Shown piece by piece: positions 34,237-55,879 of a stretch of DNA of 64,000 bases. The stretch is taken from assembly GCA_022453515.1 (NCBI GenBank), contig JAJNNY010000010.1:372001-436000 (forward strand), in the 5' to 3' direction. The translations under genes and the position numbers were made by a program. This DNA comes from Astrocystis sublimbata. Taxonomy: Eukaryota > Ascomycota > Sordariomycetes > Xylariales > Xylariaceae. The notes under the pieces were generated by a model. It saw nothing but the letters and a program-made list of their open reading frames with translations. It did not search any database and was not told where the DNA came from. Every line of letters begins with the position of its first letter. Position 1 is the stretch's first letter.

Positions 34237-35067
34237 ATGTCATTTGTAAAGACGTATTTTCTGTGTCCAACGTCTGATTTTATCCATCCTCCCCCAGCAG
34301 GGCCGCTATGTCTTGGGTCTATAATTCGCTCTACGTCGACACCCCAATACCCTCTAAATAGAGGGAACGAGGCGGCTGTGGCCGACACACTCCCTCCTGT
34401 CGTGGAAACCGATTGGAAGAAGACAGTTTCCACCAAGACAGGCTTCGGTTTGGGCGTCTATGCACAATTCCTACAGCTGGCTACTGGTGGATTGCCCCTC
34501 GGTCCTGAAGCAAACATCGATCATTCAAACGAGGCGGTGAATACGTTCGCATTTGATTCCGTGACAACTCTCGTGTTTGAGCCGACTCAGGAATATGTCG
34601 AAGAAGCCATCAAAGCACCCGCCGTGCAGATGTGGCTGAGGGAGCCTAAGCAACGATTCGCGCCCGTTGCCACGCTCTTCCTCGTCACGGGCATAAAACT
34701 CGTCAAAGGCGCAAGGATAAGATACTCGGCTTCTAAGAACACTGCTGTCACTGGGAACTTTGGTATCGACATGCATGCGCTAGGTACAACAATTGGGCCG
34801 AAGGGCCATTGGGTCAGCACGGATAACGATTGGACGGAACTCAATCGTGAGTCTGAATTTTTGTTTGCATTTCGCGTCAAAAAGCTCAAGTTTGGGCGGA
34901 GATTGAAGCTTGAAGAGTACAACAAAGGAGCCTTCTTGACCATTGGGGGAAAACGAGAAGATGACGATGCTGTTTTAGTTGAGGACGTAGATGGGTCTGG
35001 GATCGAAACTGCGAAAAAGGTTTCTGATGCGACCGAGAATAGCATCGTCTATTGCGTCCCCGCTTGA
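34237..35067 (+). CDS. Gasdermin-like pore-forming cell-death protein (HET-Q1/RCD-1-like)
   Basis: Intronless, 276 aa, the size of fungal gasdermin-like proteins (about 250-280). There is no signal peptide or TM helix. The N-terminal pattern YFLCPTSDFIHPPPAGPLCL then GSII, a mid region EYVEEAIKAPAVQMWL, and VATLFLVTGIKLVKGARI agree with what I recall of the fungal gasdermin family; no alignment was possible here. Fungal members such as Podospora HET-Q1 form plasma-membrane pores after a protease removes a short C-terminal inhibitory tail. Here the last ~40 residues follow a Lys/Arg-rich region (KKLKFGRRLKLEEY), contain an acidic stretch (REDDDAVLVEDVDG) and would be the candidate tail. The neighbour, 68 bp beyond the stop and convergent, encodes a subtilisin-like protease, as in the het-Q1/het-Q2 pair. 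The assignment rests on both the sequence pattern and this neighbourhood. Confidence 0.72.
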   Translation: MSFVKTYFLCPTSDFIHPPPAGPLCLGSIIRSTSTPQYPLNRGNEAAVADTLPPVVETDWKKTVSTKTGFGLGVYAQFLQLATGGLPLGPEANIDHSNEAVNTFAFDSVTTLVFEPTQEYVEEAIKAPAVQMWLREPKQRFAPVATLFLVTGIKLVKGARIRYSASKNTAVTGNFGIDMHALGTTIGPKGHWVSTDNDWTELNRESEFLFAFRVKKLKFGRRLKLEEYNKGAFLTIGGKREDDDAVLVEDVDGSGIETAKKVSDATENSIVYCVPA

Positions 35068-35135
35068 TTTCGGTAAATCATTATTAGGATGCAATCTATA
35101 CGTTGGTAGATGACTGGAATGTTACTGTACTTCTT

Positions 35136-38100
35136 CTAATCATACATGTGTCTCTTGATATCATTGATCTTTTCGTAAACACGCTCCCTTGTCGACCTCC
35201 TATCAAATAGTACATGAGGCGTGATATAGTCATACCCTGCCCCCCTCGTCTGTCTAACCATATGCTTCAGAACCGCATCCATTGAATGAACGTCCTTCAG
35301 CCATGGCCCGAGTAACTCGCTTTCAGGAGGCATGCTCGGCATGTGCTGTTCCTGTTGCCGCACAAAGGACAGGATTGACGCGGCAAGCCCAGCGGCGATC
35401 GGTGTTGCGACCGACGTCCCTGACATAGCATTGACAGGTTGGTTGCAGCCGTTCATTCCAACTGGCCAATGCGAAGTGACATGCTCCCCAAGGAGACTGA
35501 AATTGACATCTTTGTCGTCCGCTGTCGGGTTGAACGCCGAGGGGTTGCCATTCCCATCGGTTGAGTGTATGCAAAAGACGCTGGGGTATTTAGCTGGAAA
35601 TGCTCTGCCGAGGTTTGCGCCGTCGTTCGATGCTGCCGCAAACAACAATGTCTGACTATGTAATGCGTTGGATATCGCTGTTTTAATAGGCTCGTTGTAT
35701 TCACGAATGCCGAATGACATGGATATAATGTCCACTTTCCATTCGGAAACCGCGTGATTGATAGCCTATCCAAACCATTAGCTTCATCTCAGAAGTCAAT
35801 CTGCAATAGGGCCAGCCCTACCTTTGCAATGTCGTCGTAAGTATTACGGCCCAGAGTCTCTCGATTTGCAATTCTGGCGATGTAGATCTCAGCGCATGTG
35901 GCAACCTTGAGTAGGAGACCAAGAGCGTGAGTGCCGTGGCCGATATCGTCTCGAAACTCGTGCGGTTCTGATTGATGTACGAAACTTTGCGCACTTTTGA
36001 TTCGTGGATCTAGTCCTTGATCGGTCATCAGAAGTGCGTTCTCGGGGTCAAACCCGGAATCCAAAATCGCTATTCGCACCGGGTTGAACGTTCCGCATCC
36101 AGGTTCGACGGTGTCGAAGGAGTCGACATAGTGATGAATGGAGGACAGAAGATTGTCCATCCAGTCTTGCGAAAGTTGATTCCTTGTAGGCCCTTAGCAC
36201 GACGCAGTATTATTGTATTACCATGACTAAGAAAAACACCTTACTCTTGTTCACACCCCATCTGATGGCTTGCATCAAAGAAGTATAAGCTTTTAGTTGA
36301 AGCGTCGGGGAGATCTTTGCGAAATTGAGACCCCGAGGAAGGTTTCGCCGACATTCGCAGCACCATATCTGAGTTGAGGGATGGGTAGCTCACAGGCGCG
36401 CTGTCAGAAAGTGAACGATGAGGAGCGTGCCGTGTTTCTTTATGTGTATCAGAGGAATCGGTGTTGCTTGTTTGATGGCGAACAACCTCTCGACCGATGG
36501 AACCCCAGCAGAGTTCATTCGCTCGAGAATCGAATGAGCCCAAATCCTCCAACCGAAGGCGCCAAGACTTGAAGATCTCGGCCTCAAGTCGTTTGACAAC
36601 ATTCTGGTAGAAGAGCCGTTGTACGCTGATAGATTCGAAGTCAGCCTGTTGCCCAGGTGGGTAATACTCCCACTGCAGGCATGCTTTCGTCGCAAGATAG
36701 TAATCCACACCAGCGTCGACTTCTAGATTCTTAAGCATATCAAGACTGGTATAATAATCGGTATTGACGTTCTTGGCGGCATCCGGATCCTTTTGCATTA
36801 ACTCTACAGGTGTGCAATAGTGAAGCTCACATAAAAGTATACCTAGAGCCAGCACACTAGCATTGGGATGAACCCTGTGTTTAGAGCTGTCAGAGTCAAC
36901 CCCATTGTCACTTTTACCCACTGAGATGATCGGAATGTGCTCCATGGCTAAGAAGGGTTTCGTGATGTCGGGGAGTTCTCCATCCTCCAGTGGCTGAAAG
37001 AACTGTATCTTCGAGTGATTGAACGAGGGCTGCAGCCACGGTGTCTCCAAGAATGGAAGAAGCGCTGCAGCTAAGGTGACAGCTAAGATTCGCTTTCCCT
37101 TAAGTGGAAGTGCAGATGAACTACCACGCAATTCCTGTTGGTGTTTAAACAAAGCGGAGAGGGAAACTGCTCGAGACATTTGGTCGCCGCCAAAGGTCTT
37201 GGGTTGCGGACGAAGCCTCTGAAAAGACCCATCCTCGAGAGCCAAATGCAAGCAGTTTCGCTGACCGAGAGAGTCGGTAATACTCTGGCATATATGAGCA
37301 AAATTTGATACGTCACTAGCCAGAGGCTCAGATGATCTTCTCATTCTGTTGTTGTTTACATCTCTACCGCGAAAATGTTAGTCATGGTTCATAACTCCAT
37401 TACCCGAAGAGTGAAATACTTAACTTGACCGTTATTTTGGCTTCTTGCAATGTAGTTGCCAGTAGAGACCGCACACCGAAGAAGACTTCGAAGGAAGTCT
37501 CAATCTTTGAGTTCTTCTGCCGTGGCATCGGAAGTCTCACGCTCAGCCCTGAGCATTTCTGGCAAACACATATCCAGTGTCTCCTCAACGCGTTGTCTAA
37601 CGACACCAAGTGTTTCCTCGTCAGTATCGCGAAGTCGGCATCTGGGTCTTCAAGGTTCTCGCCGGCACTCGGCTCTTCACGAGGCAAAACGCGACGCTTC
37701 TTCGCCTCTCTGTCTAAATACGAGAGCTCCTCAATGAGAGCATCACTTTCCCGTCCCCGTTTACTAACGCGAATTGTGGAACCCTGATTAGGATGCGGAC
37801 CGTGGCTCGGACGCTCGATCATTTTGCGCACCGTCTGAAGTTTGGGATACGGTACATTGTGGTGTGAGTTCTGTTACGTAAGTAACCAAGCGTTAATTGA
37901 AAGCAGAACGTGAGCAATCGAAGAATTGGGGCTTGCCGTGTCTCAGGAGCACTTACAGAATCTGAGTCTTGGTCAGAATCGCAATCAATATAATCTTCAA
38001 ATGTGCGCAGCGTCCTCGCAAGGCGCTCAGGGTCAATATCGTCAAATCCATCGTTGTCATGTTGCAAATATGCATCCGTCCGCAGCCAAGCATCACGCTT

Positions 38101-38199
38101 CCTCGAATTCAGTGATGTGGGCGCTGACTTTTCCGGTCGTCTTCGAGCGAAGAACCCAAGCACAGTCTTCAATAGACCCTGAGATTCATCTTGATCCAT
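35136..38199 (-). CDS. DUF7580-like / subtilisin-like serine protease (HET-Q2-like)
   Basis: Five exons: 38199-37957, 37870-37425, 37345-36245, 36182-35822 and 35765-35136, all in phase, giving 926 aa. Residues 1-230 are charged and low in pattern. Residues about 230-590 resemble the fungal DUF7580 region (KRILAVTLAAALLPFLETPW; later HPNASVLALGILLCELHY). Residues about 625-870 are a peptidase S8 domain with all catalytic residues: Asp638 (AILDSGFD), His679 (GHGTH), oxyanion Asn764 (AASNDG) and Ser835 (MSGTSVATP). There is no signal peptide, so it is cytosolic, unlike secreted subtilases. This architecture occurs in fungal non-self-recognition proteins, and in Podospora such a protease (HET-Q2) cleaves the gasdermin HET-Q1. 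It lies tail-to-tail with the gasdermin-like gene, so the same activator role is inferred. The donor of intron 2 (37424) is the least certain junction. Confidence 0.82.
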
Positions 38200-38474: not shown

Positions 38475-38519
38475 TAACGTCGGTCCCCTATCAACCGGCC
38501 ACCCCGGTCACCCGGCCAC
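38475..38519 (+). repeat. Left terminal inverted repeat of Fot1-like transposon (with TA target)
   Basis: These 45 bp, starting with the TA target dinucleotide, are the exact reverse complement of 47340-47384. The repeat has internal near-repeats of CCGGCCACC. It has stayed GC-rich although the interior is AT-rich. Confidence 0.9.
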
Positions 38520-38627
38520 CCACTTTTACTCACACCGCTACTTACACTCCTTGTTTCTCACAATCGTCAAACATGCAATTATTTTTTGTTTTTTTTAAAA
38601 ATTTATATACTTATTTATAAACTTTCT

Positions 38628-39561
38628 ATGCCTCGGTATACCGAAGAAGATGTTGATTCTGCTATTGTAGTAGTTACAGCGGGCCGTAGCGTCCGTAAGG
38701 CCTCCCTCGAATAGGGGGTTCCAAGAGCTACGTTTTAAAACCGTATTAACGGTGTCCCGGCTAAGAAAGAAGCTTAAAATCACCGCTTAAAGGTTTCTTC
38801 AGAAACTGAGGAGCGATTAGCCTAATGGGTACTTCTCTAGTCCGATTTAGGGCTTCCTTTAACCTATATAGAACTGAGGGAATTTGCTAGCCGTGTTTTT
38901 AACGCCTAAGGGCTTAACGTATTACTCGGAAAGCACTGGGTCTCCCGTTTTCTAGTAAGAAACCTATCAATTTAAGTCTATAGAAGCAGGTCTATCGATT
39001 CTTGGCGTTTGAATGGGGCAACTATTGATATTATCCGAAGATAGTTCTAACGCCTAGCAATCCTAGCTATTAAAACTATTAAACCAGAAAATAGATATAA
39101 TATAAACGAAATCGGTATAATAGAAAAGATAGGGAAGAATAGTTTGGTCCTTAGGAGGGCCTAGAAAGCCCTTATTTAGCGAAAAACGCCTAGGGAGAGG
39201 ACCTGGTTATCTATTATTAAGTATATCTCTATTACTGGAACCTTTCTGCCTTTTTTAGTGATTTTTAAAAGCAGTTTATTATAATAATAATAGTATTTTT
39301 TAGATTTTAAGCTATTTAAAGGTTAGAGATAGGATTACTAGAAAAAAGGATAGATAGACGATTCTATTAGGCTAGAATGGGTCCAAAAGGTTTTTATCCC
39401 GTTAATCCAACCAGACGACCCTTCTAAAGCCAGGCTCCTAATTTCTAACAGCTATAGAAGCTATACAACGATATATTTAATATAGAAGTACTTCTAAAAT
39501 AATATTTAACTGTTATATTTGCCTCTTTATACCTCCTATATCTTTCAACCTTTTAATGTTG
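38628..39561 (+). pseudogene. Fot1/pogo transposase, N-terminal and catalytic part (decayed)
   Basis: It begins MPRYTEEDVDSAIVVVTAGR, the HTH_psq DNA-binding start of Fot1/pogo transposases, and continues with recognisable remnants of the CENP-B-like and DDE regions (for example EFASRVFNA and DDPSKARLLISN). Many in-frame stops interrupt it. The frame ends at the retrotransposon insertion, in the conserved segment that precedes the final DDE residues. Confidence 0.85.
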
Positions 39562-40060
39562 TGTAACGACTGCTCTATCTGTAACACTGAGTATAGGGTA
39601 GAGTAGGGGTCTTAGTAGGTATATGTTCCTAAGGATAAGGGCTAAGCTTATAACAAAGGATCGCTAAGCAATATAAGGTATCGTTCACTAAGTTGTCAGG
39701 AGGTTACTCCTATTCTAAGAACTGTTAGTATGCTTAGATTGAATAGTGAAGTAAGGAAAGACTAGATATATAGGAATGCCGTCGAGGCTATATAGTATTT
39801 CCTTCCTTTATATTTTGGTATGGATTATAGGATATTCCTCCTATCCTTTAGTCCTAGATAGCTAGATCGTATAGCTATCCTCTGATCCTAGATATCTGGA
39901 TCGTTCTTTAATCCTCCTATCTATTACGTAACCTTGTGGCGCCTTATTGTGGCGTGTGGCTTGTCTCCTGGTCTCGTTTTGCGTTACTAGCTTAGAACAT
40001 GGCTATCCCCTCTCGCGCTAGGTCTTTTTAATAGGTCGTGCGCCCTATTGGTTCGTAATA
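39562..40060 (-). repeat. 3' LTR (left)
   Basis: 499 bp. It aligns over its whole length with 46104-46602, and the differences I see are almost all C/T or G/A. On the element strand it starts TATTACGAACC (ancestral TG) and ends CA. Confidence 0.9.
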
Positions 40061-40849
40061 TTATCCTTCTCCTTTTAGGGTTATTGTCCTTAATAATAAA
40101 TAGTGTGCTTGCCGCTCTTTTTTTTGGTAGGTTCTTCCTTGTTTCTTATTGTTTTCCGCCATATCTGATCGAATTAAAAAGTGTTGTATTAGTTCTGTTT
40201 CTAACAGGAAAGCTGCTGAGTGTAAATCCCTTCTAGCCGCTATTCTTTCTGGTTCTCCTGTAGTGATAGCTCTATTGTGTTCCTACTACGAACGTTAGGG
40301 TTTTAAATATCTAGTCTCAGAGTCTAAGTCTTATTGCTATTTTATATATGTTCGCGATAATTAATCTTAGTATAATATAAAAAGCCTTACTCCTAAGCAG
40401 TTTAATTACGTTACTACTTAATATAAAAAGTTAAAAAACGAATTAGATATAGCTAAAAAAGCAGCTAAACTAGCCCTTGCTTAGGTACGTTGTTTTTATA
40501 AATAAAAGAAAATGTGGTATAACAAGATAATGCGAGCCGTTGCTTATGGTATTATGGATCTCGAAGAGTTCGAGGCTTTGGAAAAACGGGAGTGGGCGGA
40601 GGAAGAGCGCTTATCCTATAAAGCTCTATTAAGTCTTAATCCCACTACTACGTTTAACTAGGATGCCCTTAATTCTCCTTCGGCTTGGGAAGTCGATTCT
40701 GCTCTTTTGGCCTTGGTCGATCAGGATATTGCTAGTGAAACTGTTTCGCTGCCTGTACAGCGTTCTATAAGTACTTCTTAGGTTCCTACGTATTTTCCGC
40801 GTATAAGTACTCTTTCTATTTTACTAGGTATTCGAACGTGTTTTTGTTT

Positions 40850-43800
40850 TAACGTAAATCTAGTATTTCTTCGATTTCGAATTTTTCGTAATCGGGTTCT
40901 GTTTCGAGCTTGGTTTCGAGCTTGGCATCATCGGGTGCTTTCTTTAGCAAAGAGATATAGAATACCGGGTGTCTCCTTATTCCTTTGGGTAGTTTAAACA
41001 GGTAGTTTAATTTCGATCTGACTTCCTTAATCTCGAATAGTCTAATCCACTTAAAATCTAATTTTTCGTTTGGTTTTTTTGTTTTAATATTTCGTTTTAA
41101 AAGATAGACCTTATCTCTCTCTTTTAAGGTTGGCTTTAATAACCTGTTTTTATTATAATAAGCTTTTATTTGTTCCTAGATAAACGTGAGTTCTTATTAT
41201 AGTTTTTATTACAGGCCTAAGGCTGTCTTGGCTTGATTTTCTGCTTAAAGTGCCGTAATTCCCGGAATCGCAGTTCTTTCTTCTAGGTCAAACCTATAGT
41301 TCGCCTTGAAGGGTGACATTTTTATAGACTTATTAACTGAGCTATTATAGGCATATTCTACTGCTAGTAATAACTCAACCCAGTTATTTTGCTATTTGTT
41401 AAGGTAGCATCGGAGGTACTGTTCTAGCGTTTGATTTAGCCTTTCTGTCTGTCCGTCTGTCTAAAGGTAGTAAGCTATAGACATTCTGTGCTTAACCCCT
41501 AATGCTTTTATGAGTGATTGCTAGTATTTAAAAGCCATCGTGCTTCCTTGATTAGTAATAATCTCTTCTGGGAATCCGTGCTTGCTGAAGACATGCTTCA
41601 GAATAGCGTATCTAAGTTCTTCTGCGGTGCTTGCTTCTTTGTAGGGTACAAAAAGCCCGTATTTAGTAAGTCTTTCTGCTATAACTAAGATAGAGTCGAA
41701 CTCTACTCCTATTATTGGTTCTTTGGACTTGGGTAGCTTTATAATAAAGTCGAACGCGATTATTTTCTATGCCCTGTCTGGTAGCTTGATTGGGTTTAAT
41801 AGTCCGTATGGCTTATGTTGTAATATCTTTGCTTTTTGATATATATCGTATTTCTTAATAACTTGTCTGATATGGTCCTTTATGCTTAAGAATCTGTAGT
41901 ATTGTTTTAATCTTTGATGGGTTTTGAAGACTCCCTGGTGTCCTGCTAAGGGGTGCTTATGTATTTCTCGTACTAGTTTTGTACGGAATTCGTCTGGTAT
42001 GTATAGTTTCCCTTTATAGTCTTTGTGCATCTGATCATTGTGATCTGGGGATTGATTTTAATTCTGGAGGAATTCTCTGATTTATTGTATCCATTTGTTA
42101 TGGTTAATCCTTATGGCTACACTAATTTGTAATATGCGGTCGTTGTTTTTTTTAAACATTTGTGTAGCTCCTACCACTGTAAGTCCATCTTCCTTATTGC
42201 CCTGCAATAGGATCTGGCTTTTCTTTTCGCCCGTTTGTTTATAGTTATTTCTTTGACTCAGAATATCGGCTTAAACATTCTCTTTGCTTTTAATATAGAT
42301 AATTTTAAAATTAAACTATAATAGGAATTCTACCTATTATATTTATTGTTTGTTTAATATTTTAATGGTTATAAAGGTTGTAAGGTTTTTATAATCTGAG
42401 TAGACTTTTATTAGTTATTCCGAGCTATAGAAATAATGTTCCCATTTTTCGAATACTCGGACAATAGCTATAAATTTTTTGTCTAAGATTAGGTAGTTTA
42501 TTTATAGTCCTAAAAACTTTGTTAAAAAGAATACTATTAGATATAGTTTTCCATTCTCATTTTGTTAACCTAGTTATCTACCTATTACGTTATTGCATGC
42601 GTTAATTTCGACTTTAAATTCTTTATCTAGATCAAATAATCGTAATACTAGATCTAACAGTACTTTTTCCTTTAGTGTATCAAACGCCCGTTATTCTACC
42701 TCTGTTTATTAGAATTCGTTGTCTTTCTTCGTAAGGTTCGTAAGGGGTGTGGCGATTTTCCCAAATCTAGTAATAAGAGCTCGGACGTAGTTTGTAAATC
42801 CTACGAACGCCCGTACGTCTGTAATGCTTTTTAGTACTGGCTAATTCCTTACTACTTCGATCTTTATGTTTTAGATTCGTACTTCTCCTGGAGTAATCGT
42901 GAATCCCAGAAAGTCCACTTTCTACTTATGAAATTCGCTCTTTTCAGCGTTCACTTTCAATTTGGCGTCTTGTAGTGCCGTAAGCACTTGTTGGACATAT
43001 CCCTCGTATTTTTCTACGGTTTCTGAATAGATTAGGATATTATTAAGGTATACTATCACGAATTTATCGAGAAATTCGCGTAGTATATCCGTAATTATGG
43101 CTTAGAAGCTTGCTAGTGTATTAGTAAGCCCAAATAGCATTACTAGGTATTTGTATAACCCGTAAGGTGTTCCGAATACCGTTTTTTCTTTATTGCTTTT
43201 AGTAATTCGTAGTTCGTAATATAATTTTGGTAAGTCTAAAGTAGTGAACCATCTGGCCTTATATAATCTATCTCGTAGGTTGTCGATTCTTAGTAACGGT
43301 TCTACGAATTTCTTGGTTTTTGCATTTATATCTCTATAATCGATACACAGCCTCTATTTAGGCTTACTATCTTTGCCTGGTTTCTTGGGTACCTATAGAA
43401 TCGGTGATCTCGCTAATAATTCTGACTTTCATATATACCCCCTAGCTAGGTTCTTTTATAGATATTCGTCCAATTCCCGCAGTTATTCATAGTTTATGTG
43501 GTATAATGCTTAGTGTTTTAGGGTCTCGCCTTCCTTAATTGGAATATAGTAATCCTATCTACTATACTCTAGTAATCCTGTTTCCATTAGTTATATTTTA
43601 AATAAGTTGCCGAATTCTTAGTACTATTCCGGTAACTCATCCGTCAGTATCAGCTTAAGCTCCTTAATTAATAAACAAATGCTAAGTGCCTTTATAGATT
43701 TATATAAGTTCTTCCCAATAGACTCTTCAAAAGCTAAATCTCTTCTTGGTATATCCTATTAAAGCTAGCCGGTGCTCCAATTCACTTTGGGATTACTTAC

Positions 43801-44100
43801 CTATAACCAGGGTATCTCTAAAATAATATCGTGCCTGGATATTTCTGTAATATCGAGCTTAAGCTGTTCTTTGTAACCCTGGACATTAAAAGGAAGTTTT
43901 ACAGTTTCTTTTCTAATAATCCCTTGATTATACGCTATATAACTACTATTAATGGTTATAAGTGGGTAAGGGTTGTCCTTAAGCTTCTATTCTAGGTTAA
44001 GCTTGTTAATAATTCTTAGTAAAATAAAGTTTACTTGCGTGCCTATATTGATTATAGCTATTAACTTTTTTCTATTATATTGTAATTCTATTATGAGTTG
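40850..44100 (-). pseudogene. Decayed pol (RT-RNase H-integrase) of the gypsy element
   Basis: The coordinates are approximate. The reverse-transcriptase core is readable near 43.03-43.1 kb as YLNNILIYS, where gypsy elements have YLDD; Asp-to-Asn is the expected GAT-to-AAT change. The integrase zinc-binding domain at 41767-42030 is the longest surviving frame (HPLAGHQGVFKTHQRLKQYY, 87 codons). Near 40.9 kb HPVFYISLLKKA marks the end of integrase. Many stops make the gene non-functional. Confidence 0.8.
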
Positions 44101-45099
44101 TATAAACATCTCTATATCTATAGCGCATAACGACTTTTCGATATTTTAAGTTAGTTATTATTGCTTTATAACTGTTTTTCGTTGTTTTTTGATTGTTATG
44201 CTATATGTCGTCGGTTTTTGCCCTTTGTGGCCTAGACCTTTTCTGTATGGTTCCGTAGCTCTTCTTCGGACCATATTGGTTTTCCATCCAGTATTGCTAT
44301 AACTAGTGGTTCGGAGTCCTGACTCCCTTGTACAGGTGTCTTGTATGTAAGTTGTTTCTATCGAGCCTTTTTGTTGGCTTTGTTCTTCTTTTTCCAGTTT
44401 CTTGCTTTCTTATATGCATGGATTTTACAGTGGTTGCTAGTATACTCTTTTAACTTATCTCCCCCTAGAAAGCATTCTTTAGGCTATATGGGGTCTGATT
44501 TAAATAAACAAAATCCTCTAGGGTCGTAGTAAGTAACTACCAGTCGTCCTATTTCGTCTTCTCGGTATAATCTATCTATTAGTTTTCTATTAATCCGTTT
44601 TAGAAACTAGTTGTTTTAGATCTTTTTAACTATATATTTGTTATATTAATACACTATATAGGATACCCAGGAGATTTCTTTGTGTTTTAGATTCTTTAGT
44701 ACCAGTATCTTTTTTCCATTTATTATAGTTCTATTATATAAGTAGCTCTGTGATACATATCCTGCTATATATTGTAGCGTCTCGAGAGTATTGGTTCCCA
44801 TCCCTATAATTAATGGGTAGTTTCCCATTCGTTATACTTCCTAAAGTCGATCCTGCAATCTATACTCAGGTATTATTTCTAGAGTTATCAGTTTAATCTT
44901 TTTAACTTCTTATTCTTTTTGTCCTTAATTGGTTATAAGGGTGTCTCCTTGTTGTATAGATTTGGCTACTAAGTATTTAATTCTTTTAAACTTAGTCTAG
45001 TGTCTATACCAATCGTATGCGCAGCCTATGTCTTTAGGACATAACTCGCCTTCTGGCTAGTCCCTATTTTTAACTATTAGTATACTACTTATACGCATT

Positions 45100-46080
45100 A
45101 TCACGATCTATCGCGTACTGTTTTCGGCTACTAACGCTTGTCTTTCCTTGGGTACTCTTCTATTCTTTCGTTCCTTTTGGGGTTTAGGGCATTTTTATAT
45201 ATAATGTCCCATTTGTTAGTAATTATAACATTTGACTTGCTTAAGGTCTTTTTCTGCGGCGTCAACCTCCATTGGGCCTGGGTGTGTTCCTGTAGCCATG
45301 GATTGGTTCTTTTGTGCCTTCTTGGTATTAGCTATATATATGGCTCCTTTTTCTCGTTTTTATATATGTCTTTCGTACAAACGATTGTCGATTTTGATTA
45401 CCAATGTAATATAGTTATATAGTTCCTTTGGTTGTTTGATTCGGAATAACTCGTTTTGGATTTTGTTCTTTAGTCCCTTATAGAATACGGATATTAGGTT
45501 ATCGTTATTATTCCAAGTTATAAGTACGAGTATCTTTTTAAACTCGGTAGCGTACTTGCTAGCTAACCCAGTCTATTATAGGTCTAGCAGCCTTTGTTCT
45601 GCTCGTCTTTCGGCTTCTAGATCACTATATATATCTGTAAAGGCCTTTTCGAATCCCTTTATATCAGCGAATGCTTTTTTAGTATCTTCTAACCAATCTT
45701 TTTCCTTGTTTTTAATAAATTTTTTTATCTTTGGCTCGAACCATTCTAGTGTTTCTCTAGTAAGGAATCCTGCTACGCAAAGGATCTTTTCTCCTTCTAA
45801 GGGAAAGTCCTTTCCGAAGTGCCGTATGTAGGCCTTAGCCTAGGTTAGGAACCCTTTTAACTAGTCTTATTTCCTGTTAAATATGGTTAGTTGAGTTAGC
45901 TTATAACGCTTTAGCTTAAATATCGTAAATAGTTAGTTTTCGAACTATTTATTAGCTTCGTCCAACTAATTAATTCTTCTGTATAACTGGTTAATAATTT
46001 TCAGGACTTGTTCCTGAGTTATATTGGGTATCTAAGCTTACGTAGCCATTGCGTCCTATTGCTCAGCTTACTTTGTAGCT
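45100..46080 (-). pseudogene. Decayed gag of the gypsy element
   Basis: Minus-strand remnants read AYIRHFGKDFPLEGEKILC, FEPKIKKFIKNKEKDWLED and KYATEFKKILVLITWNN, the gypsy Gag core. A damaged zinc knuckle follows (CYNY...GHYI...KC, near 45.2 kb). In-frame stops are frequent. Open frames on the plus strand here are antisense to this gene. Confidence 0.75.
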
Positions 46081-46103
46081 TAACTAAACAAGACTATTCA
46101 AAA

Positions 46104-46602
46104 TATAACAACTGTTCTATCTGTAACACTAAGTATAAAGTAGAGTAGGGGTCTTAGTGGGTATATATTCCTAAAAATAAGGGCTAAGCTTATAATAAAG
46201 GATCGCTAAGCAATATAAAGTATTGTTCACTAAGTTATCAAAAGGTTACTCCTATTCTAAAAACTATTAGTATATTTAGATTAAATAGTAAAGTAAGGAA
46301 AGACTAGATATATAGGAATACTATCGAAGCTATATAATATTTCCTTCCTTTATATTTTGGTATAGATTATAGGATATTCCTCCTATCCTTTGGTCCTAGA
46401 TAGCTAGATTGTATAACTATCCTCTAATCCTAAATATCTAGATCGTTCTCCGATCCTCCTATCTATTACATGACCTTGTGGCGCCTTATCGTGGCGTGTG
46501 GCTTATCTCCTGGTCTCGTCTTGCGTTACTAGCTTGGAACATGGCTATCCCCTCTCGCGCTAGGTCTTTTTAACAGGTCGTGCGCCCTGTTGGTTCGTAA
46601 TA
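46104..46602 (-). repeat. 5' LTR (right)
   Basis: 499 bp, the partner of 39562-40060. It carries more A/T changes than the left copy, including at both terminal dinucleotides. Confidence 0.9.
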
Positions 46603-47317
46603 CGTTGTAGTATTTTCCCTTCTAAAAACCGCCTATCGTAAATATCTTAGGTATACTACCTATTTATATAATTTTTCTATTATCGGTAAGCGAAATTTCC
46701 TTAAATACTATCGTAAAGCCCGTTTAAATACTTTAATAACGTTAAATATTATAGCTAGTTAGAAAGCTACTAAATTATGGCCGGTTTTATTAAAGCATCT
46801 ATTACTAAGCTTTTTACTTTTAAAAAAGCATTTCTAAAAAGCCCTAATAACTCTAAAGAACATCTAAACCAATAGCTAGGTCAATAATCTATTAGAATCA
46901 ATAGATTTAAAGGCTTTAAAAGTTATATGGTTTACTCTTCGGCATTCCTAGGACCTCTGTTAGTAATTAGATATATATACTACTACTATAATAGGATCTA
47001 CTATCTAATAGCTGTTATTTTCAAAGGTTAAAAAGGCTTTTATTAAAAAAGACATTTAGTTAGCTTTTAAACGCCGCAAAAAAAAAGCTTAAAAAACTAA
47101 ATTTAAAGCTGTAATTCCTTAGAAACAAAAGAAAGTAGAATTAAACCTTTAATCTAAGTTTACTAATATTAAAAACATCCGGCGGGCGTAAATTACCGCT
47201 AGCGATATTAAGAGTGATCCTAGTGAATCTAGCAGGTCTGATTTACCTAGTAAAGCCAAAGAATATATTATAGTTGTTACAGATAACTCTGAAAGTGAGA
47301 ATGAAGATAGTGGGTGA
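46603..47317 (+). pseudogene. Fot1/pogo transposase, C-terminal part (decayed)
   Basis: It continues the split transposase directly after the target duplication: VVFSLLKTAYRKYLRYTTYL, GKRNFLKYYRKARLNTL and ATKLWPVLL match the end of the DDE domain of Fot1-type transposases. In-frame stops are present. The frame ends at a TGA at 47315-47317, shortly before the right inverted repeat. Confidence 0.82.
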
Positions 47318-47339
47318 TGGTAATAATAGGTGGGATTGA

Positions 47340-47384
47340 GTGGCCGGGTGACCGGGGTGGCCGGTTGATAGGGGACCGACGTTA
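47340..47384 (-). repeat. Right terminal inverted repeat of Fot1-like transposon (with TA target)
   Basis: Exact reverse complement of 38475-38519. Confidence 0.9.
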
Positions 47385-48115: not shown

Positions 48116-51100
48116 ATGACTGGAAGTCTTGATCAGATGCAGGCTAATGATATGGAAGATGTCTTCCTTCAAGATGGACTTTGCCCGACAATTGCAGAAC
48201 ACGCAACACAATGCAACGCCCTTTTCAATAAATATATAACCCTGCCAGAAATCGTGCCAGACCCTACTATCATGGATGACCAGCTGGCACGCTTCACACT
48301 GTGGGCATCGAACATGGACGTTTACGGACCGCTCAATGTTTCGTTAGACTACAGACTCCGATTCAGTCCTACAGTCGTAGAGATCATCCACCAGCTTCTG
48401 GACGTCATTTGTGATACTTTGACATCTTGTGAGTACCTCTAGCGTCGGATTTGGATAGACTGGGCATCCAGGATTCTTTGCTAATGTGAATCACTATACC
48501 ACGACAGTGAAGCCAATCGACGACCCACCACAAACTCCAAGCAGGAAAAGACAACGTGTATCAAAGTATGGCGACTCGGAAGTTAAGCGGAGAGCCGACG
48601 ACGACGCAAGCGATTCCGACAGTAACATGGACCCGGCAGAAGATAATATTTTTAAAATCACCGATGCAATTGGAGGAACAGTAACACGGCTCTTTCGTCT
48701 ATCCAATGCCGTTCGAAAATCGGCGAAAGCAAACCGTGCGCGCAAGATTGAAGGGTATCGCGATGATGAAGAGGCGAACAACGCCATAGCCGAATTGCGC
48801 CTCTACACAGAATGCTACATTCGTTACCGATATCCGATGGCGCCGGATTCGCTTTGCTCAGCATTGGTCGAAGCCAATGCGCTGCGACTTCGACGACTGT
48901 ATTATCAGCGATCCCATCGCAGGCGCATCGAATTGAGTGTACAGAAACCACAAGCCACCCCGACTCTTTTTCAACTGCCCAAGATAAAGGAGAATACCCC
49001 GCTTGTACGTTTTGCTCCGAGCGCTTTACCAAAGCCAGCGACTATCGACAAAACACCGGGACCGACTGGCCCTCCTCCAGTGCCAGTAACGAATGCAACT
49101 ACTGCTCGACAGACTGCTGTCGGGGCTCTTTACGCCAAATCCACAACCGAGGTTCCTCGGGCCAAGTCTGTTCTCGTGAACAATAAATTGTCGTTCCCTC
49201 CGTTACCACCGACACACGAGTGTCCTTATTGCGGCGTCATTATTGAGTTCAAGACCACTGCGAGGTCAATGCTGTGGCAGTAAGTCGATCATCATTATCG
49301 TAGATGATGTTAACTAATTAACTTGTCCCTAGCAATCACGTCATCGGAGACCTGGAGCCTTTCATTTGCGTCTTTTCACACTGCTTGGAAGCTGGTCGAC
49401 ATGAGACTGGTCAGACTAGTCCGCTCACATTTGAAACGTCGAAAGCCTGGATCAGCCACATGCAGAATGCTCATGGGCATACATGGGAATGCAGAGCCCC
49501 TTCTCATAATCCAATCATCTTCAATCAGGAGTCTGAGTATCAAGAGCATTCTATCAAAGAGCATGGCGTGCCTGAAATGCATGCTGGGACTCTTAGCAGC
49601 GCAGCACGGAGACCAGTTCTCGAAAAGGTGCTCGAGTGTCCATTTGGCGATGACTTTCAACCTCCAGACAAAGTCGACGCCAGTGCCGTGTTTGCGAGCG
49701 AGGCTCTTCAGTTACACGTTGCCGCGCACATCAAGGAGATCGCTCTGCTCACGCTGCAAAAGTTACCCAGTGATGTTGACGAAACGACCATGAACGTCGA
49801 TAGCGACCAACCATTAGAAGATGAGGGGCCAGGGTTTGCAATGTTGCGGGGGTCCATGTACAGTGTGCTGGACGATGAGGATCTGGACTTCCAAGACGAC
49901 GTTGAGGCTCCAAATGACATTGCAGACCACGACGTAGAGTACATCAGCCCATCGGTAACAAGACTCGGCCTGGAGGACAAAGACGATTTGGGAATGACAC
50001 AGCTTCATCACGCGGCAAAAGACGGTGATTTGGACTTGACTGACTCTTTGATTCGCGGAGGCACGACTTTGGGCAGCAGAGACAATAACGGCAGGACGGC
50101 GTTACACTATGCTTCCACGGGACAGTCTCAACATAGTAAGAAGATGCTGGGCTTGCTGCTGAACGCCGCCTTTGAATCCTTTATCAATCTAGGCGATGAA
50201 AACGGCCAAACAGCACTGCATTACGCTGTGGAGGCGGGATGGGTTGACGGCATAGACATGTTGGCTAGCCACAGTGCTGACGTTCGTATCACTGACAATC
50301 ATGGGATTCCCCCGCTCATCTGGGCCATTCTCGCTAGGGAAAGCGGCTCTATCGAGAGACTGATATCAATCGGTGCCGACATCAACTCTACCTGTGCGTT
50401 GGCTTGGGCAGCTAGTATGGGCGACTCTGCAGTTGCTCATCTACTTGTTGAACATGGTGCTGTAGTACGGTTCGGGTCGCAAGAGAGCCCCATGATGCCG
50501 CTAACAGAGGCCGCCGCTTCTGGTCAATACGAATTGGTCCGATTCTTCCTTGACGAAGCTGCGGACCCAAATTGTACTGATCGCGATGGATGGTCCGCAA
50601 TACATTGGGCAGCAGAGGAGGGCCATCTGGAGACTGTTCGTTTGCTATTGGACGCAGGAGCCGATTTCGATGCCATCAGCTCTTACGGTACATCACCATT
50701 GCACTGTGCTGCAAATGGGGGCCATATATCTATCGTGAGCTTGCTTCTTCTAAGGCAAGCTGACCCGCTGAAGTCAACATGTCACGGTTGGACTGCACTG
50801 CATCATGCCGCCTTCATGGGGCATTCTCACGTTGTCCAGTGCCTTCTAGAAGACAGCCGCGTACGGTCCATTGCTTCTCAGCAAGATAATCATGGATGGT
50901 CTGTTCTGCATCTAGCCGTACATAGTCGGGACCTGGCAACTGTCGATGTCCTGCTGAGCAACTATGCTATTGCAGAGCCACAGGCCCTCATCGATGAGAG
51001 CGGCCTCACTGCGGAAGAATGGTTAGATCTCAGGTCATCTAGCCATTCCTATAAAGCTACCTGTAATCTAGCTTTCAGCAAGTCGCGCTGTTGCAGGGCC

Positions 51101-51661
51101 ACCACCAGCTTACGGCACGCTGTTATCACAGGCAATGTGCCTTGGATCAAACTCCTCTTAAAACATGACCAAGATGTGAACGAAGTGAACTCCGGAAGAA
51201 GGACTGCGCTATACCACGCTGCGAAGAAGCGCATGCTTTCCAGCATGGATTTGCTTCTTGATGCGGGTGCAGACCCTAATATCCTTCCAACCGGACGGAA
51301 AAATTGGGAAGAATTTATCTCGGACAAGGACGTTCTCCTACGTCTCGAGAAAGCTGGATACACGAAGCAAGGCATTGACCCTGGAGTTGAGGGCCAAATC
51401 AAATTTGCACTGGTGAACCAACGCCGATCTTATGCTCAGTCTCAACCAGTGGCATATGTACCGGACGAATCGAATCATCGAGGTGAGGTGGTGCTGACAG
51501 GGCCAGAGCAGGTGATTCCGACCCGTCCAGCACTTGTGAAGTCAACGTCAAGTACGTCAATACGCCAAGTGCTACCTGCCAGCCAAAAGAATGACCATAA
51601 ACGTAAAGCGGGCTCAGCTCGTTCGGGCGCAAAGAGCTTTTGGAAACGGCTGATAGGGTAG
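48116..51661 (+). CDS. Large ankyrin-repeat protein with Cys/His (C2H2-like) region
   Basis: Three exons, 48116-48428, 48508-49279 and 49333-51661, giving 1137 aa. The N-terminal ~360 residues hold a short helical segment, a basic nuclear-localisation-like PSRKRQR, an acidic stretch, and a conserved fungal module usually found before zinc fingers. Exon 2 ends with HECPYCGVIIEF and exon 3 begins with FICVFSHCLEAG, HMQNAHGHTWECR and EYQEHSIKEHGV, arranged as degenerate C2H2 fingers. Ankyrin repeats then fill about residues 565-1000 (for example GMTQLHHAAKDGDLDLTDSL, RTALHYAST, WSAIHWAAEEGHLETVRLLL). The C-terminus is disordered and basic. The role is probably a protein-protein scaffold or recognition protein. 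Its stop is 207 bp from that of the convergent NLR-like gene, which makes it a candidate partner. Confidence 0.83.
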
Positions 51662-51868: not shown

Positions 51869-54800
51869 TTATGAGCCGATGATCTGACTTAACATGTTAT
51901 CGATCCCTGGTAATGATTGTAGATGCTGTTTTACTCTTCGTCCAAGTGCCGCTGCAGGCAGTGATAGGCCATACTGTTTTCCAATGATCAGACACTCCAC
52001 AAGGGTTTTGCACGCGCGCTTTTGAAGCGGGCCCGAAAGTTGGTTTGATATCAAAGCACTCATTTCTTCTGGGAGGGCCTCGCCAATCAGCCATCGGTAG
52101 GCGATTGCGTTCTCGTGACACAGAATCAAAAGGGATGCGGGGACCATGTTGAGAAAGCGGTCTTGTCCCTTTTCTTGGGAGAGCTGAGCGAATTGGAGGA
52201 TACTGGTCAGGAAGTAACGCAATGCAAGGGAGTCGTGGGTTTCGCTAATGACGGTCAGCTCATTGGCGCAAGCCTCATTAGCGTCACTGAACAACTCGAT
52301 CTCGTGGCTGCCGCCGATGTAGCCTTCGTAGAATTCTGCAATGACTCGAGAGAAGTACTCGATTGGTTGCGGTTCCTTATTCTCGAGCATGGCGAAGTGC
52401 GACGTCAAAAGTACCACTGACCGAAATACGTTCTCTTCCCGGTTGCCACTCTGGACGCAGGAATCAAAGTCGTTGAGAAATTCGCGAACACCGTAATGCA
52501 GGAACTCAGCTGCGTCTCTGTTATAGGCGATAGCGGTCCAATGTGAGAATGCTCTGGCTGTGATGGTATCTCCTTCTCTCCATCCTTGTCGGACAGCTGC
52601 GAGTTTACATTCCGAGCCGACGAGGACGGCTATCACTAACAGTGCTTGGAGATCTCCAGGAGCGACCGCTCGGAGTACCTGCGTTGGCAGGTCGGTCATG
52701 GCTGTAAGCCTTCGAGGGTTTCGGGCTTCAATCAGCTGTACGAAGAACTCGCGATAGGATTCGGCCCATTCTCGCAATTCCTCCGTTTTGTTCTCTTCTA
52801 CAAGCTCTTGCAGTACAGACATATTCTCCCAGCGATCGAACGCTACATACTTCAGATACAGTGTCACTATTTGAAGAATGATGGGAAAACGGAAGGAGAG
52901 GCCCAGGGTCTTCATGACTAGATCGACCTTTCGTGATGCCTGCTTGTATCGTTCGAGAAAAATCTCTTCCTGAAGACCCAATAGCTCTTTCACCCGCTCT
53001 TCCATGGGGTCATTACGCCCTTTGAGGGAGGTAACTCCTGCGGGAGTCGGCAATTTGTCCACGCGCGCTCCGTGGTCAAGCAATATCTGGATGATCTCCT
53101 TCGAGTGCGCCTGAATGGCCCGAATCAATGCTGTGTCGCCATGCTCGGATTTGATCTCGAGCCGGGCACCATGATTGAGTAGCACAATCACAATGTCTTT
53201 GTGCTGGCCAGTGACCGCGACGTGGAGTGCCGTCAAATTGCTTCGATCCTTGGCATTAACACGAGCCCCGTGGTCAAGCAGCAATTCCACCATGTCTCGG
53301 TGGCCTCGATTGACGGCCCAGGAAAGTGGCGTCCGCCCGTAATTGTCCTTTCGGGAAATGAGACGAGCGTGCTCACGAATCAATATCTTGGCCCAGGCAA
53401 CATTGCCCAGGTACGCAGCGAGATGCAAAAGCGTAAACGAGGGTGGGTTTCCGCCGTTCTTCTCCTGCTCCCAATAATGCTTCCACCATTCGTCCCGTAC
53501 TGGCGAATTGACATCAAAGAAAACACGCGAGAACTCGGACGATGCGTTAATCACATCAATGGCGTGATGGAAATGTACGGGCCAATACTGACTGGAATAG
53601 GGCAGGAGAGGATCGTGACCAGATCCCTCACTAATACTTTCGCCAATACTTCCAGAAGATGCGTACCCACGTTCGACGTGTGCTAAGCAGGTCTGCATAA
53701 GAGTCTTGTGGGTGTTCTGATTCATGCGAAACATGTTGATCCCTTCCATGTTGACTTGATCACTCTGAAAGAACTCCTTCGCGGACTCGTGGACCAGATT
53801 AACCACATCCTCTTCAATCTTGACGAGTAACCCGCAGAATCTGAGTCGTTTCTTGATCACCTCCGTTGCCGGTGAGGTGCCAGCAGCCTCGATTCCTGTG
53901 GCTGCTGTCAATTCGCTTACCGTAAGGGGCCGGGCAGCGAGAACGATCCATTGTAGAATAGGCACCAGCGCTTCCTTATCATCAATTTGCTGAAGCAGCC
54001 GCTGATACACACCACCGAGGCCTTTAGGCACACGACGTAGAATTTCATTGATTTGGTCCCAGTTCCTGCCCTGAAGCTCGTTGGCAACGAACCCAACCCA
54101 CAAAAAGGTACCATTCGCGCCGGCCAACAAGGTCTGTCGGACATGTGCCACCTTTTCTTCCGAGAGATTTTGCTCAGATGCCAGTTCGGCGACTTTGGCG
54201 AAAATATACCTCTGAACATCATGCGATACCTCGGTTTCGGAATTGTCCAACCTGATCTGCTGATATTGGCCGAGTCTACTCTCCAAAACAGCCGGTTGCG
54301 GCCGCGAGAGAAGAATCAGTTTGAGTCGTGGACCTGAATTTTCACGAGAGCTTGACAAATAAGTCCCAACCACATCGAGGAGCTGTCTGAGCGATTCCTT
54401 TTCGCATTCATCTAAGCCGTCAAGCACACAGACTACCTGGGAAGATCCACTCTGTCGAATCAGTGATAGGAAAACCCTCCACAAGGAGATAAAGCTGGAC
54501 ACAGTATATTTGGTTGTTTCAGTTCCCTCGAAGGAGCTCTTGATATGCTGTGCCATGTGCGGATGGCGATCGACCCATTGATGCATAATTCCTCTCAATA
54601 TGGTCAATGCAGTATTGCGGTTCTTGTCACGGTTACTACAGAAGTAGTAAAGGAGAACATCATCGTTGGTATCAAATACTGGTTGTAGTACCTCAGTGAC
54701 GTAGATTGCCAGCATAGTTTTGCCTTTCCCAGGGCCACCGGAGATCCAGAGGAGTGGCAGATTGACGTCTGTCAGCCACGCTTGATAGCTGGGATGCTGT

Positions 54801-55879
54801 ATGAGCCATTCGCAGGTGCCGTCAACTCTGCGCCCTTTTAATGCAATGAGGGACTTCCGGTCAACTTCGGGTCTAGTCAAGAGCAGAGCGTTGAGAACTG
54901 GCGCGGCCTCGGCGTACGTGTTCAGTGCCAGAGGTCTAGGTTTGGGAGTCGTGGGAATGAACGCCAGGACCTCCGTCGCATATGCTGCTGCTGCTGCTGC
55001 AGCGTAGGCGTGCCAGAGCTTGGAACTGTGCGAATCCGCATAATCGCAGATTCCTCGAATGATCAGATATTGAGCGGCATCTCTTAAGCCAGCCGCCGCC
55101 GTCTCGAAACAGAGGACGCCTCGCTCATGCGCCAACTTGTCACGGGTTACTCCATGGGGTATCAAATGATGACCAGAAGCAATCCGGCCGTAGTGAACAG
55201 TAGGATCTGTTGTTTCTCGTGGCTGTCGAGGCCGGCTTTTATTCGGGTCGCAATCATCGCACCCGTCGTCTTCAGAGTGTATGGTTGTGTGTTCGTAACT
55301 GGACTCAAACAGGACGTCTTGCTCTGGACCTGGATGAGCAAAGGTGACGGGGTCATTCTGAACAATCTTGGCAATGTACTCAGAGATGTGGCTTTCATCA
55401 AAAATGGCCGCTGTCTCGGCCTTGCCTATAGCTGTGAGAAGTAGTTGTGCTGGTTGATCTAACGCTTTACCGCGATGAAGCTGGTCTTCTGCTCGATTTC
55501 CGTTGACATCATATTGGATAACACCCGGCCATCCAGCTGTTGATTTGCTTACAACAACATCGCCGAGACGAATATCCTCTTTCGTATCTGGCACACCCCC
55601 TGCGATGCCAACCATCAGATGGAACCGGACAGATTTGAAGCTCGCATGCAGTTGTGTGGCCACGCCCGCTACCGACGTCTTCCCATACATGCCGGACTTT
55701 GGATATGCGAGTACAACATTGTGACCTTGGAGACTTCCTAAAATGTAGTTCACATCGACATCGCTGTTCTGATCCAATGGTATGTTGTCATGAATGCGAT
55801 CAAACGTGGCTTTGGCTGCCGCCACCTCTATGGGCAGTGCGCAAATCCACCCGACAAAGTATTCGTCACTGGACGCCAT
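51869..55879 (-). CDS. NLR-like protein: PNP-NACHT-ankyrin, with a long C-terminal helical domain
   Basis: Intronless, 1336 aa. Residues about 8-305 form a purine/uridine phosphorylase (PNP_UDP) domain: VGWICALPIEVAAA, MVGIAGGVPD, RLGDVVVS and RGICDYADSHSSK. A NACHT NTPase follows with Walker A GGPGKGKT (381-388) and Walker B VVCVLDGLDEC (482-492), then a winged-helix region (WIVLAARPLTVSELTAATGI). Three to four ankyrin repeats lie at about 830-985. About 340 further residues, mostly helical and not recognised, end the protein. The PNP-NACHT-ANK layout is a common fungal NLR-like (nucleotide-binding, repeat-containing) design used in non-self recognition and cell death. NTP binding looks intact. 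An alanine run (AYAAAAAAAY, 291-300) lies at the end of the PNP domain. The gene is tail-to-tail with the ankyrin gene. Confidence 0.88.
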   Translation of the reverse strand: MASSDEYFVGWICALPIEVAAAKATFDRIHDNIPLDQNSDVDVNYILGSLQGHNVVLAYPKSGMYGKTSVAGVATQLHASFKSVRFHLMVGIAGGVPDTKEDIRLGDVVVSKSTAGWPGVIQYDVNGNRAEDQLHRGKALDQPAQLLLTAIGKAETAAIFDESHISEYIAKIVQNDPVTFAHPGPEQDVLFESSYEHTTIHSEDDGCDDCDPNKSRPRQPRETTDPTVHYGRIASGHHLIPHGVTRDKLAHERGVLCFETAAAGLRDAAQYLIIRGICDYADSHSSKLWHAYAAAAAAAYATEVLAFIPTTPKPRPLALNTYAEAAPVLNALLLTRPEVDRKSLIALKGRRVDGTCEWLIQHPSYQAWLTDVNLPLLWISGGPGKGKTMLAIYVTEVLQPVFDTNDDVLLYYFCSNRDKNRNTALTILRGIMHQWVDRHPHMAQHIKSSFEGTETTKYTVSSFISLWRVFLSLIRQSGSSQVVCVLDGLDECEKESLRQLLDVVGTYLSSSRENSGPRLKLILLSRPQPAVLESRLGQYQQIRLDNSETEVSHDVQRYIFAKVAELASEQNLSEEKVAHVRQTLLAGANGTFLWVGFVANELQGRNWDQINEILRRVPKGLGGVYQRLLQQIDDKEALVPILQWIVLAARPLTVSELTAATGIEAAGTSPATEVIKKRLRFCGLLVKIEEDVVNLVHESAKEFFQSDQVNMEGINMFRMNQNTHKTLMQTCLAHVERGYASSGSIGESISEGSGHDPLLPYSSQYWPVHFHHAIDVINASSEFSRVFFDVNSPVRDEWWKHYWEQEKNGGNPPSFTLLHLAAYLGNVAWAKILIREHARLISRKDNYGRTPLSWAVNRGHRDMVELLLDHGARVNAKDRSNLTALHVAVTGQHKDIVIVLLNHGARLEIKSEHGDTALIRAIQAHSKEIIQILLDHGARVDKLPTPAGVTSLKGRNDPMEERVKELLGLQEEIFLERYKQASRKVDLVMKTLGLSFRFPIILQIVTLYLKYVAFDRWENMSVLQELVEENKTEELREWAESYREFFVQLIEARNPRRLTAMTDLPTQVLRAVAPGDLQALLVIAVLVGSECKLAAVRQGWREGDTITARAFSHWTAIAYNRDAAEFLHYGVREFLNDFDSCVQSGNREENVFRSVVLLTSHFAMLENKEPQPIEYFSRVIAEFYEGYIGGSHEIELFSDANEACANELTVISETHDSLALRYFLTSILQFAQLSQEKGQDRFLNMVPASLLILCHENAIAYRWLIGEALPEEMSALISNQLSGPLQKRACKTLVECLIIGKQYGLSLPAAALGRRVKQHLQSLPGIDNMLSQIIGS

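Follow-up and report, generated by a model that had tools for sequence, protein, structure and literature searches.

A 64,000-nucleotide stretch of contig JAJNNY010000010.1 of the fungus Astrocystis sublimbata (the window; contig C2 of the 42.6-Mb genome in our numbering) likely carries a protease-switched gasdermin cell-death module, probably consisting of three genes. These encode a fungal gasdermin, a protease that joins a DUF7580 domain to a subtilisin-type (S8) domain, and a C2H2 zinc-finger/ankyrin protein. The basis for this reading is the structure of the genes, the families to which the proteins belong, an intact catalytic triad, linkage in other fungi, parallel divergence of the partners, and a conserved candidate cleavage site. 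In the proposed mechanism, the gasdermin would be kept inactive by a short C-terminal tail, while the protease would be a cytosolic enzyme silenced by its own N-terminal helices together with the degenerate-kinase DUF7580. The C2H2/ankyrin protein would most likely detect the trigger or restrain the protease. A stimulus would then free the subtilisin, which would cut the gasdermin after Phe233, and the released 233-residue part would form pores in the plasma membrane and cause cell death.

The gasdermin gene (34237..35067, plus strand) is intronless and encodes 276 residues, with an RCD-1-like region at about residues 19-220 followed by a 43-residue C-terminal tail past the candidate Phe233. 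On sequence grounds it encodes a fungal gasdermin of the RCD-1/HET-Q1 family. An intronless gasdermin-like gene of this length was the starting point of the original prediction, and it was borne out by matches to RCD-1: phmmer found the RCD-1-2 structure (8jyz_B) at 2.1e-9 and RCD-1-1 at 4e-6, and a profile of the gasdermin family matched 8jyz at 4.1e-12. The similarity to RCD-1 fades at about residue 217-220, and a conserved tail lies beyond. In profile searches, which had been suggested as a check, DUF7580 was matched (8.2e-27), as was RCD-1 by the family profile, and Pfam gave no gasdermin match. The Pfam library scan of this protein and five of its relatives returned no family match; a precomputed table flags PF26164 on some gasdermin relatives, including three of those five, and the local Pfam library gave no PF26164 match. 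Comparison of a predicted structure with the gasdermin fold, the other suggested check, came out in favour of the prediction on a weak AlphaFold model (mean pLDDT, the predicted local distance difference test, of 49.7). The best Foldseek match was RCD-1 8jyz_B (1.4e-5, probability 1.00), and the first 24 of the 50 rows shown were gasdermins, RCD-1 leading and bacterial and animal proteins following; TM-scores reached at most 0.36 by query and 0.45 by target.

Convergent with the gasdermin gene is the protease gene (38199-35136, minus strand), whose five exons yield a 932-residue model. The stop codons of the two genes are 68 bp apart (35068-35135), just as first described. Exon 1 (37957..38199) encodes an N terminus without a secretion-signal-like start by eye. 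Exon 2 (37425..37870) encodes the helical N-terminal region and, in the splice model, the start of DUF7580, which begins at residue 165 in the relative P0121. Most of DUF7580 and a linker are in exon 3 (36245..37363; Pfam DUF7580, 8.2e-27). The N-terminal half of the subtilisin, with Asp644 and His685, comes from exon 4 (35822..36182; Pfam S8, 0.0052 on the isolated open reading frame of the exon), and the C-terminal half, with Ser841, from exon 5 (35136..35765; Pfam Peptidase_S8, 1.5e-14). All five exons are on the minus strand. The introns measure 86, 61, 62 and 56 bp, with donors GTAAGT, GTTAAG, GTAAGG and GTAGGG. Several splice choices are open, and the 932-residue model uses the best-looking sites. 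In this model the triad is Asp644/His685/Ser841, with Asn770. The triad was correctly called intact from the start, and its earlier positions, Asp638/His679/Ser835, belong to an alternative splice choice that is six residues shorter (926 residues). The longer exon edge is backed in part: among relatives, 92 rows have a residue at position 231, which is Asp in 84% of them, and the next residues vary.

Protease relatives numbered 135 among 7,996 scored candidates, and the best 120 are listed, at up to 88% identity over 100% of the length. Across the window protease and these 120, the triad residues are conserved in nearly every row with a letter (Asp in 115 of 118, His in 114 of 115, Ser in 103 of 104). 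A profile of the relatives finds the intracellular serine protease 7xr8 at 1e-35, with 7y6m also among the best solved relatives, in keeping with a cytosolic enzyme; the earlier view of a non-secreted subtilisin is supported by homology, as is the suggestion that DUF7580 is the likely regulatory part. The gasdermin has 310 relatives, of which the best 120 are listed, the window's own included; the 119 others share 67-88% identity over 94-100% of its length. Identities of this order, for both proteins, exclude chance resemblance. No protein 100% identical to the window protease is among the best 120 of its 135 relatives, so the window's own protease is not one of them; it may be missing from public annotation, whereas the C2H2/ankyrin gene on the same contig is present.

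The candidate cleavage site is sharply conserved. Phe233 lies 43 residues before the C-terminal end of the gasdermin and closes the motif E-E-Y-N-K-G-A-F. It is Phe in 118 of the 120 aligned rows; the two residues before it, Gly231 and Ala232, are Gly in all 120 and Ala in 119. A variable, mostly acidic linker follows in these rows, and then the conserved tail. For HET-Q1 of Podospora anserina (278 residues), a cut after Phe238 in the P1 position has been proposed, with loss of 40 residues (PMC10989679). By position and conservation, Phe233 is likely the corresponding candidate site, and the four other gasdermin loci of the genome have a hydrophobic residue at or beside the matching place, as judged by eye. 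The conservation of Phe233 makes the cleavage model directly testable in yeast. One could instead suppose that this is a gasdermin of the RCD-1 kind, acting independently of cleavage, and that the neighbouring protease has another role. Among solved structures, RCD-1 of Neurospora crassa is indeed the nearest in sequence, and it needs no cleavage to act (PMC12881547); the homology falls within residues 19-220 and RCD-1 heads the fold-search matches. RCD-1 differs in acting by the pairing of two variants and in being 20-30 residues shorter (257 and 244 residues), whereas the length of the window protein is like that of HET-Q1 (276 versus 278 residues) and its tail is conserved past residue 217-220. 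The protease is also linked to the gasdermin in other fungi, and we regard the RCD-1-like explanation as very improbable.

Gasdermin/protease two-gene clusters of fungi, called Q2L clusters, were reportedly described by Clave et al. in 2022. From its sequence, the pair in the window is best classed as a Q2L-type cluster, a known kind and the nearest known thing, rather than het-Q. As in Q2L clusters, the gasdermin adjoins a multidomain S8 protease, and the protease itself qualifies as Q2L-type by its S8 domain, intact triad, lack of a secretion signal by eye, and a gasdermin less than 10 kb away. The S8 proteases found beside gasdermins in these clusters have been proposed to be both sensor and activator (PMC10197012, PMC10989679), and a review speaks of clusters with two or three genes and of proteases joined to "predicted kinase-like domains". 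The difference from Q2L clusters lies in the C2H2/ankyrin gene: it is a gene of its own, linked in many species, and the ankyrin repeats are thus on a separate protein here. In our reading, what goes beyond the known Q2L kind is the linkage of this third gene, the view of DUF7580 as a degenerate kinase, and the reuse of DUF7580 with and without a protease.

The original prediction drew instead on Podospora, where it took the HET-Q1 and HET-Q2 genes to be linked. They are idiomorphs, different genes at the same locus (PMC12881547). The window resembles het-Q in the length of the gasdermin, the subtilisin-type protease and a Phe about 40 residues from the C terminus; it differs in the length of the protease (932 residues, against 388 for HET-Q2) and in having both genes side by side. 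A plain het-Q system is rejected, because gasdermin and protease are both present in one genome and are not idiomorphs. It is also improbable that the locus is an allorecognition (het) locus, at which the pair would kill when unlike strains fuse, as happens in Podospora. Two characterized gasdermin systems of fungi, rcd-1 and het-Q, do determine incompatibility, and yet only a small minority of the NLR, gasdermin and HET-domain genes of fungi serve allorecognition (both from PMC12881547). Coexistence of the two genes in one genome, unlike the idiomorphs het-Q1 and het-Q2, argues against such a function, and so does conservation across species: over 29 linked gasdermin/protease pairs, mean identity is 0.77 for DUF7580 (residues 161-500), 0.75 for S8 (630-932) and 0.59 for the N-terminal 160 residues. 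The allorecognition analogy thus found no support, with DUF7580 the most conserved of the three protease segments compared and not a variable one.

The third gene, encoding the C2H2 zinc-finger/ankyrin protein, is at 48116..51661 on the plus strand (exons 48116-48428, 48508-49279 and 49333-51661; a model of 1137 residues) and is transcribed away from the protease. Its public model (P0241, Astrocystis sublimbata) has 1124 residues, without 13 of those in our model. The protein combines a small domain at its N terminus with C2H2-type fingers and ankyrin repeats; the ankyrin match reaches 6.7e-67, and the C2H2 region was assigned by similarity to family members and by eye. Between protease and third gene lies a nested, AT-rich transposon of 8.9 kb (38475..47384). 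The outer element has 48-nt terminal inverted repeats (98%) that start and end with TA, and the inner one has direct terminal repeats of at least 300 nt (39564-39863 and 46106-46405, 91%). Minus the transposon, the start codons of the two genes would be about 1.0 kb apart (about 275 plus 731 bp).

Linkage in other fungi was read from match tables, by equal lengths of contigs and by locus tags, with JGI-style "DRAFT" tags excluded as evidence of gene order. Among the 120 listed gasdermins, 29 share a contig with a listed DUF7580-S8 relative and 28 with a listed C2H2/ankyrin relative, and 11 contigs hold all three; these denominators of 120 include relatives on short contigs, which cannot show linkage. 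The third gene has 224 relatives. Of the best 120, the window's included, 54 are on the same contig as a listed gasdermin or protease, and for 12 of these that contig is shorter than 120 kb. Linked ankyrin relatives occur in Aspergillus, Trichoderma, Pestalotiopsis, Ophiocordyceps and others, often with near-consecutive tags. The tags of protease, gasdermin and ankyrin genes are strictly consecutive in Aspergillus alliaceus (457/458/459), Pestalotiopsis fici (10858/10859/10860) and Ophiocordyceps australis (3358/3357/3356). Gasdermin and protease tags are consecutive in these three species and in Penicillium cataractarum, Pyrenula, A. melleus and Kalmusia, and two apart in Capronia.

There are 15 same-contig protease-ankyrin pairs with numbered non-JGI tags, including the three species with consecutive triples; 11 of these differ by exactly 2, one by 3 and one by 4. 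For 11 pairs only the protease and ankyrin tags were seen; the difference is exactly 2 in 8 of them, which leaves room for one gene in between. The 13 tagged gasdermin-ankyrin pairs differ by 1 (seven pairs), 2 (two), 4 (two), 7 (one) and 60 (one). From these differences the usual order seems to be protease-gasdermin-ankyrin. The tail-to-tail orientation may be shared as well: an Aspergillus avenaceus protease (P0181) ends in a stretch that reads antisense to the first codons of the gasdermin (82.5% over 40 residues), most simply an annotation error from a convergent neighbour, which suggests the same orientation there.

Of the complete two-component switch that was first envisaged, homology supports the gasdermin and the protease, and "two" may be too narrow a count, because the C2H2/ankyrin gene is linked in many fungi. 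The alternative is that the cluster is a two-gene Q2L unit and the ankyrin gene a linked, independent immunity gene in a region rich in defence genes. We consider this a substantial, though clearly less probable, explanation. Two-gene clusters are the published unit and account for about 80% of fungal gasdermins (PMC10197012), and in the window itself an NLR-like gene lies nearby, as does another stretch that matches the third-gene family. In addition, 18 of the 29 gasdermin-protease contigs have no ankyrin relative among the best 120 of 224. They include Xylaria sp. FL1777, the closest listed relative with both genes, and Aspergillus multicolor, and on the Xylaria longipes, X. flabelliformis and X. 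cubensis contigs, too, no ankyrin relative is found among those 120; such a gap may reflect the choice of the best 120, missing annotation or real absence. Consecutive tags of all three genes in distant fungi, and linkage for 54 of the 120 ankyrin relatives, are harder to reconcile with an independent third gene, as are the parallel divergence and the finding that each of the six DUF7580 loci found above the Pfam cut-off in the genome has a relative of the third gene lying head-to-head, both described below.

These missing ankyrin relatives count against a three-gene, protease-switched module, and several further observations do so too. Same-contig status is itself deduced from equal lengths of contigs. 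Two protease-ankyrin pairs do not fit the tag pattern, being 70 apart in Fusarium oxysporum (LZL87) and far apart in F. verticillioides (FVEG), and in Fusarium graminum the protease and ankyrin relatives are on separate contigs. The order in the window is gasdermin-protease-ankyrin, unlike the usual one, as if the convergent pair had been flipped, and the third gene lies 9.9 kb from the protease, across the transposon. The role proposed for the third gene comes from linkage alone. That role, the trigger, cleavage, pore formation, killing and the order of events are inferred. Phe233 was matched with HET-Q1 Phe238 by position only, and the cleavage-independent action of RCD-1 is a precedent for the other mode. 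Finally, the AlphaFold model of the gasdermin is of low confidence, perhaps because none of its 66 relatives falls below 67% identity, and just two Foldseek rows reach an E-value of 0.001; the fold assignment accordingly leans on the sequence match.

The genes of the proposed three-gene module appear to have diverged in parallel. Trees of the 29 gasdermins and 29 proteases show the same 14-versus-15 split of species, with support of 100/100 for the protease and 98/94 for the gasdermin, where the bootstrap is unsettled. The set of pairs includes shortened annotated proteases (596-745 residues), and the Kalmusia protease is on a long branch. Pairwise identities of gasdermin and protease are correlated over the 29 pairs (rho 0.61, reached in 0 of 2000 shuffles). 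For the 11 triples, rho is 0.74 for gasdermin-ankyrin (0 of 5000 shuffles), 0.60 for gasdermin-protease (9 of 5000) and 0.61 for protease-ankyrin (58 of 5000). Both sides of the split mix Aspergillus with Sordariomycetes and Dothideomycetes, ignoring taxonomic class. With class labels assigned from genus names, identity within classes is 0.765 for the gasdermin and 0.707 for the protease, versus 0.763 and 0.692 between classes, an equality that may stem in part from the use of the best 120 hits, which flattens differences. Periconia and Pyrenula, placed in different classes, share 91% (gasdermin) and 92% (protease) identity; the Pyrenula genome was assembled from a metagenome and is possibly contaminated. 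Transfer between classes as a unit would fit this pattern, and so would very old duplicate lineages under strong constraint. A Starship captain (DUF3435) was sought as a vehicle of transfer, and its four matches in the genome are on three contigs, none of them C2.

No account of the third gene turned up in the literature searched, which included parts of PMC12881547, PMC10197012 and PMC10989679; it may be mentioned in Clave et al. 2022, which lies outside this scope. A 2025 review (PMC12881547) names the stimuli that activate putative fungal sensors as a major open question, and the linked third gene would provide a concrete candidate for a sensor or regulator.

DUF7580, which is not named in the literature searched, looks like a degenerate kinase, on moderate evidence. 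The HRD and DFG motifs were not seen by eye at the places suggested by the model. The mapping of residues is unsure, because the profile-profile alignment (hhalign) of DUF7580 to nine kinases of the same genome has a probability of only 7%, over 23 columns; in global mode it is 0.2%, in a different register. DUF7580 exceeds the Pfam cut-off at six loci found in the genome (C165, C2, C135, C141, C132 and C104), and a weak match on C117 falls below it, with no third-gene domain in the surrounding 10 kb. At all six loci the DUF7580 gene lies head-to-head with a frame related to the N-terminal domain of the third gene; the frames are about 0.3 to 0.8 kb apart at five loci and 9.9 kb, with the transposon, in the window. 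The match at C132 is the weakest (2e-4 in a small set). In the stretches examined, the profile of this domain finds nine loci, namely these six, C164 (beside a gasdermin), C166 and a second place in the window; genome-wide searches gave four and five other places.

These loci differ in what accompanies DUF7580. At least five gasdermin loci were found in the genome, and three of the five (C2, C165 and C132) adjoin a DUF7580-S8 gene. No S8 match was found at the DUF7580 loci C135 and C104, where a frame starting with a hydrophobic segment precedes the DUF7580 gene and is joined to it as one gene by inference. This arrangement is like that of the MLKL/HELL-kinase necroptosis-like proteins, the difference being that the executioner of the window gene would be a protease plus a gasdermin. 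A Pfam scan of these N-terminal frames gave no family match; they may resemble HeLo-like death domains. One can tentatively picture DUF7580 as a degenerate-kinase sensor chassis, with a C2H2(-ankyrin) partner encoded head-to-head and two alternative executioners: a membrane-active N-terminal segment on the same protein (necroptosis-like, C135 and C104), or a subtilisin at the C terminus that sets off a gasdermin encoded separately (pyroptosis-like, the window). On this view the cluster of gasdermin, protease and ankyrin genes would move between fungal classes as a unit. This broader picture is doubtful, but if it were true, the degenerate-kinase domain, with and without a protease, would tie pyroptosis-like and necroptosis-like death in fungi to one input device.

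Other loci of the genome show further arrangements. At C46 (L017, 2510-9427), a gasdermin, an S8 protease without DUF7580 and a large HET-domain gene lie together, forming a different three-gene set. The gasdermin at C164 is at the start of its contig and has no S8 match in the surrounding 10 kb or on the contig. C141 (L020) has a DUF7580-S8 gene and a head-to-head C2H2-type gene, at about 2.9-5.5 kb and 6.3-8.0 kb, and no gasdermin match within 10 kb; the six-frame match there crosses stop codons and may be decayed or hold introns.

Directly beyond the third gene, on the minus strand (51869..55879), lies an intact-looking NLR-like gene of 1336 residues with a phosphorylase domain, a NACHT-type NTPase and ankyrin repeats. 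We treat it as a neighbour and do not assign it to the cluster; its position beside the third gene marks the region as rich in immunity-type genes. The second match to the third gene's N-terminal domain (57284-57959, plus strand) consists of two open stretches and may be another member of the family or a copy in decay. A short element (33856-33982) lies immediately upstream of the gasdermin gene. It resembles a small non-autonomous transposon, its inverted arms of 43 nt being 86% complementary, and it recurs at 98-99% identity at two other places in the genome (C132 and C99). Genes for haemolysin-III-related membrane proteins are found on both flanks, at 32560-33330 and 60980-61603, both on the minus strand (Pfam HlyIII, 8.9e-19 and 1.5e-22).

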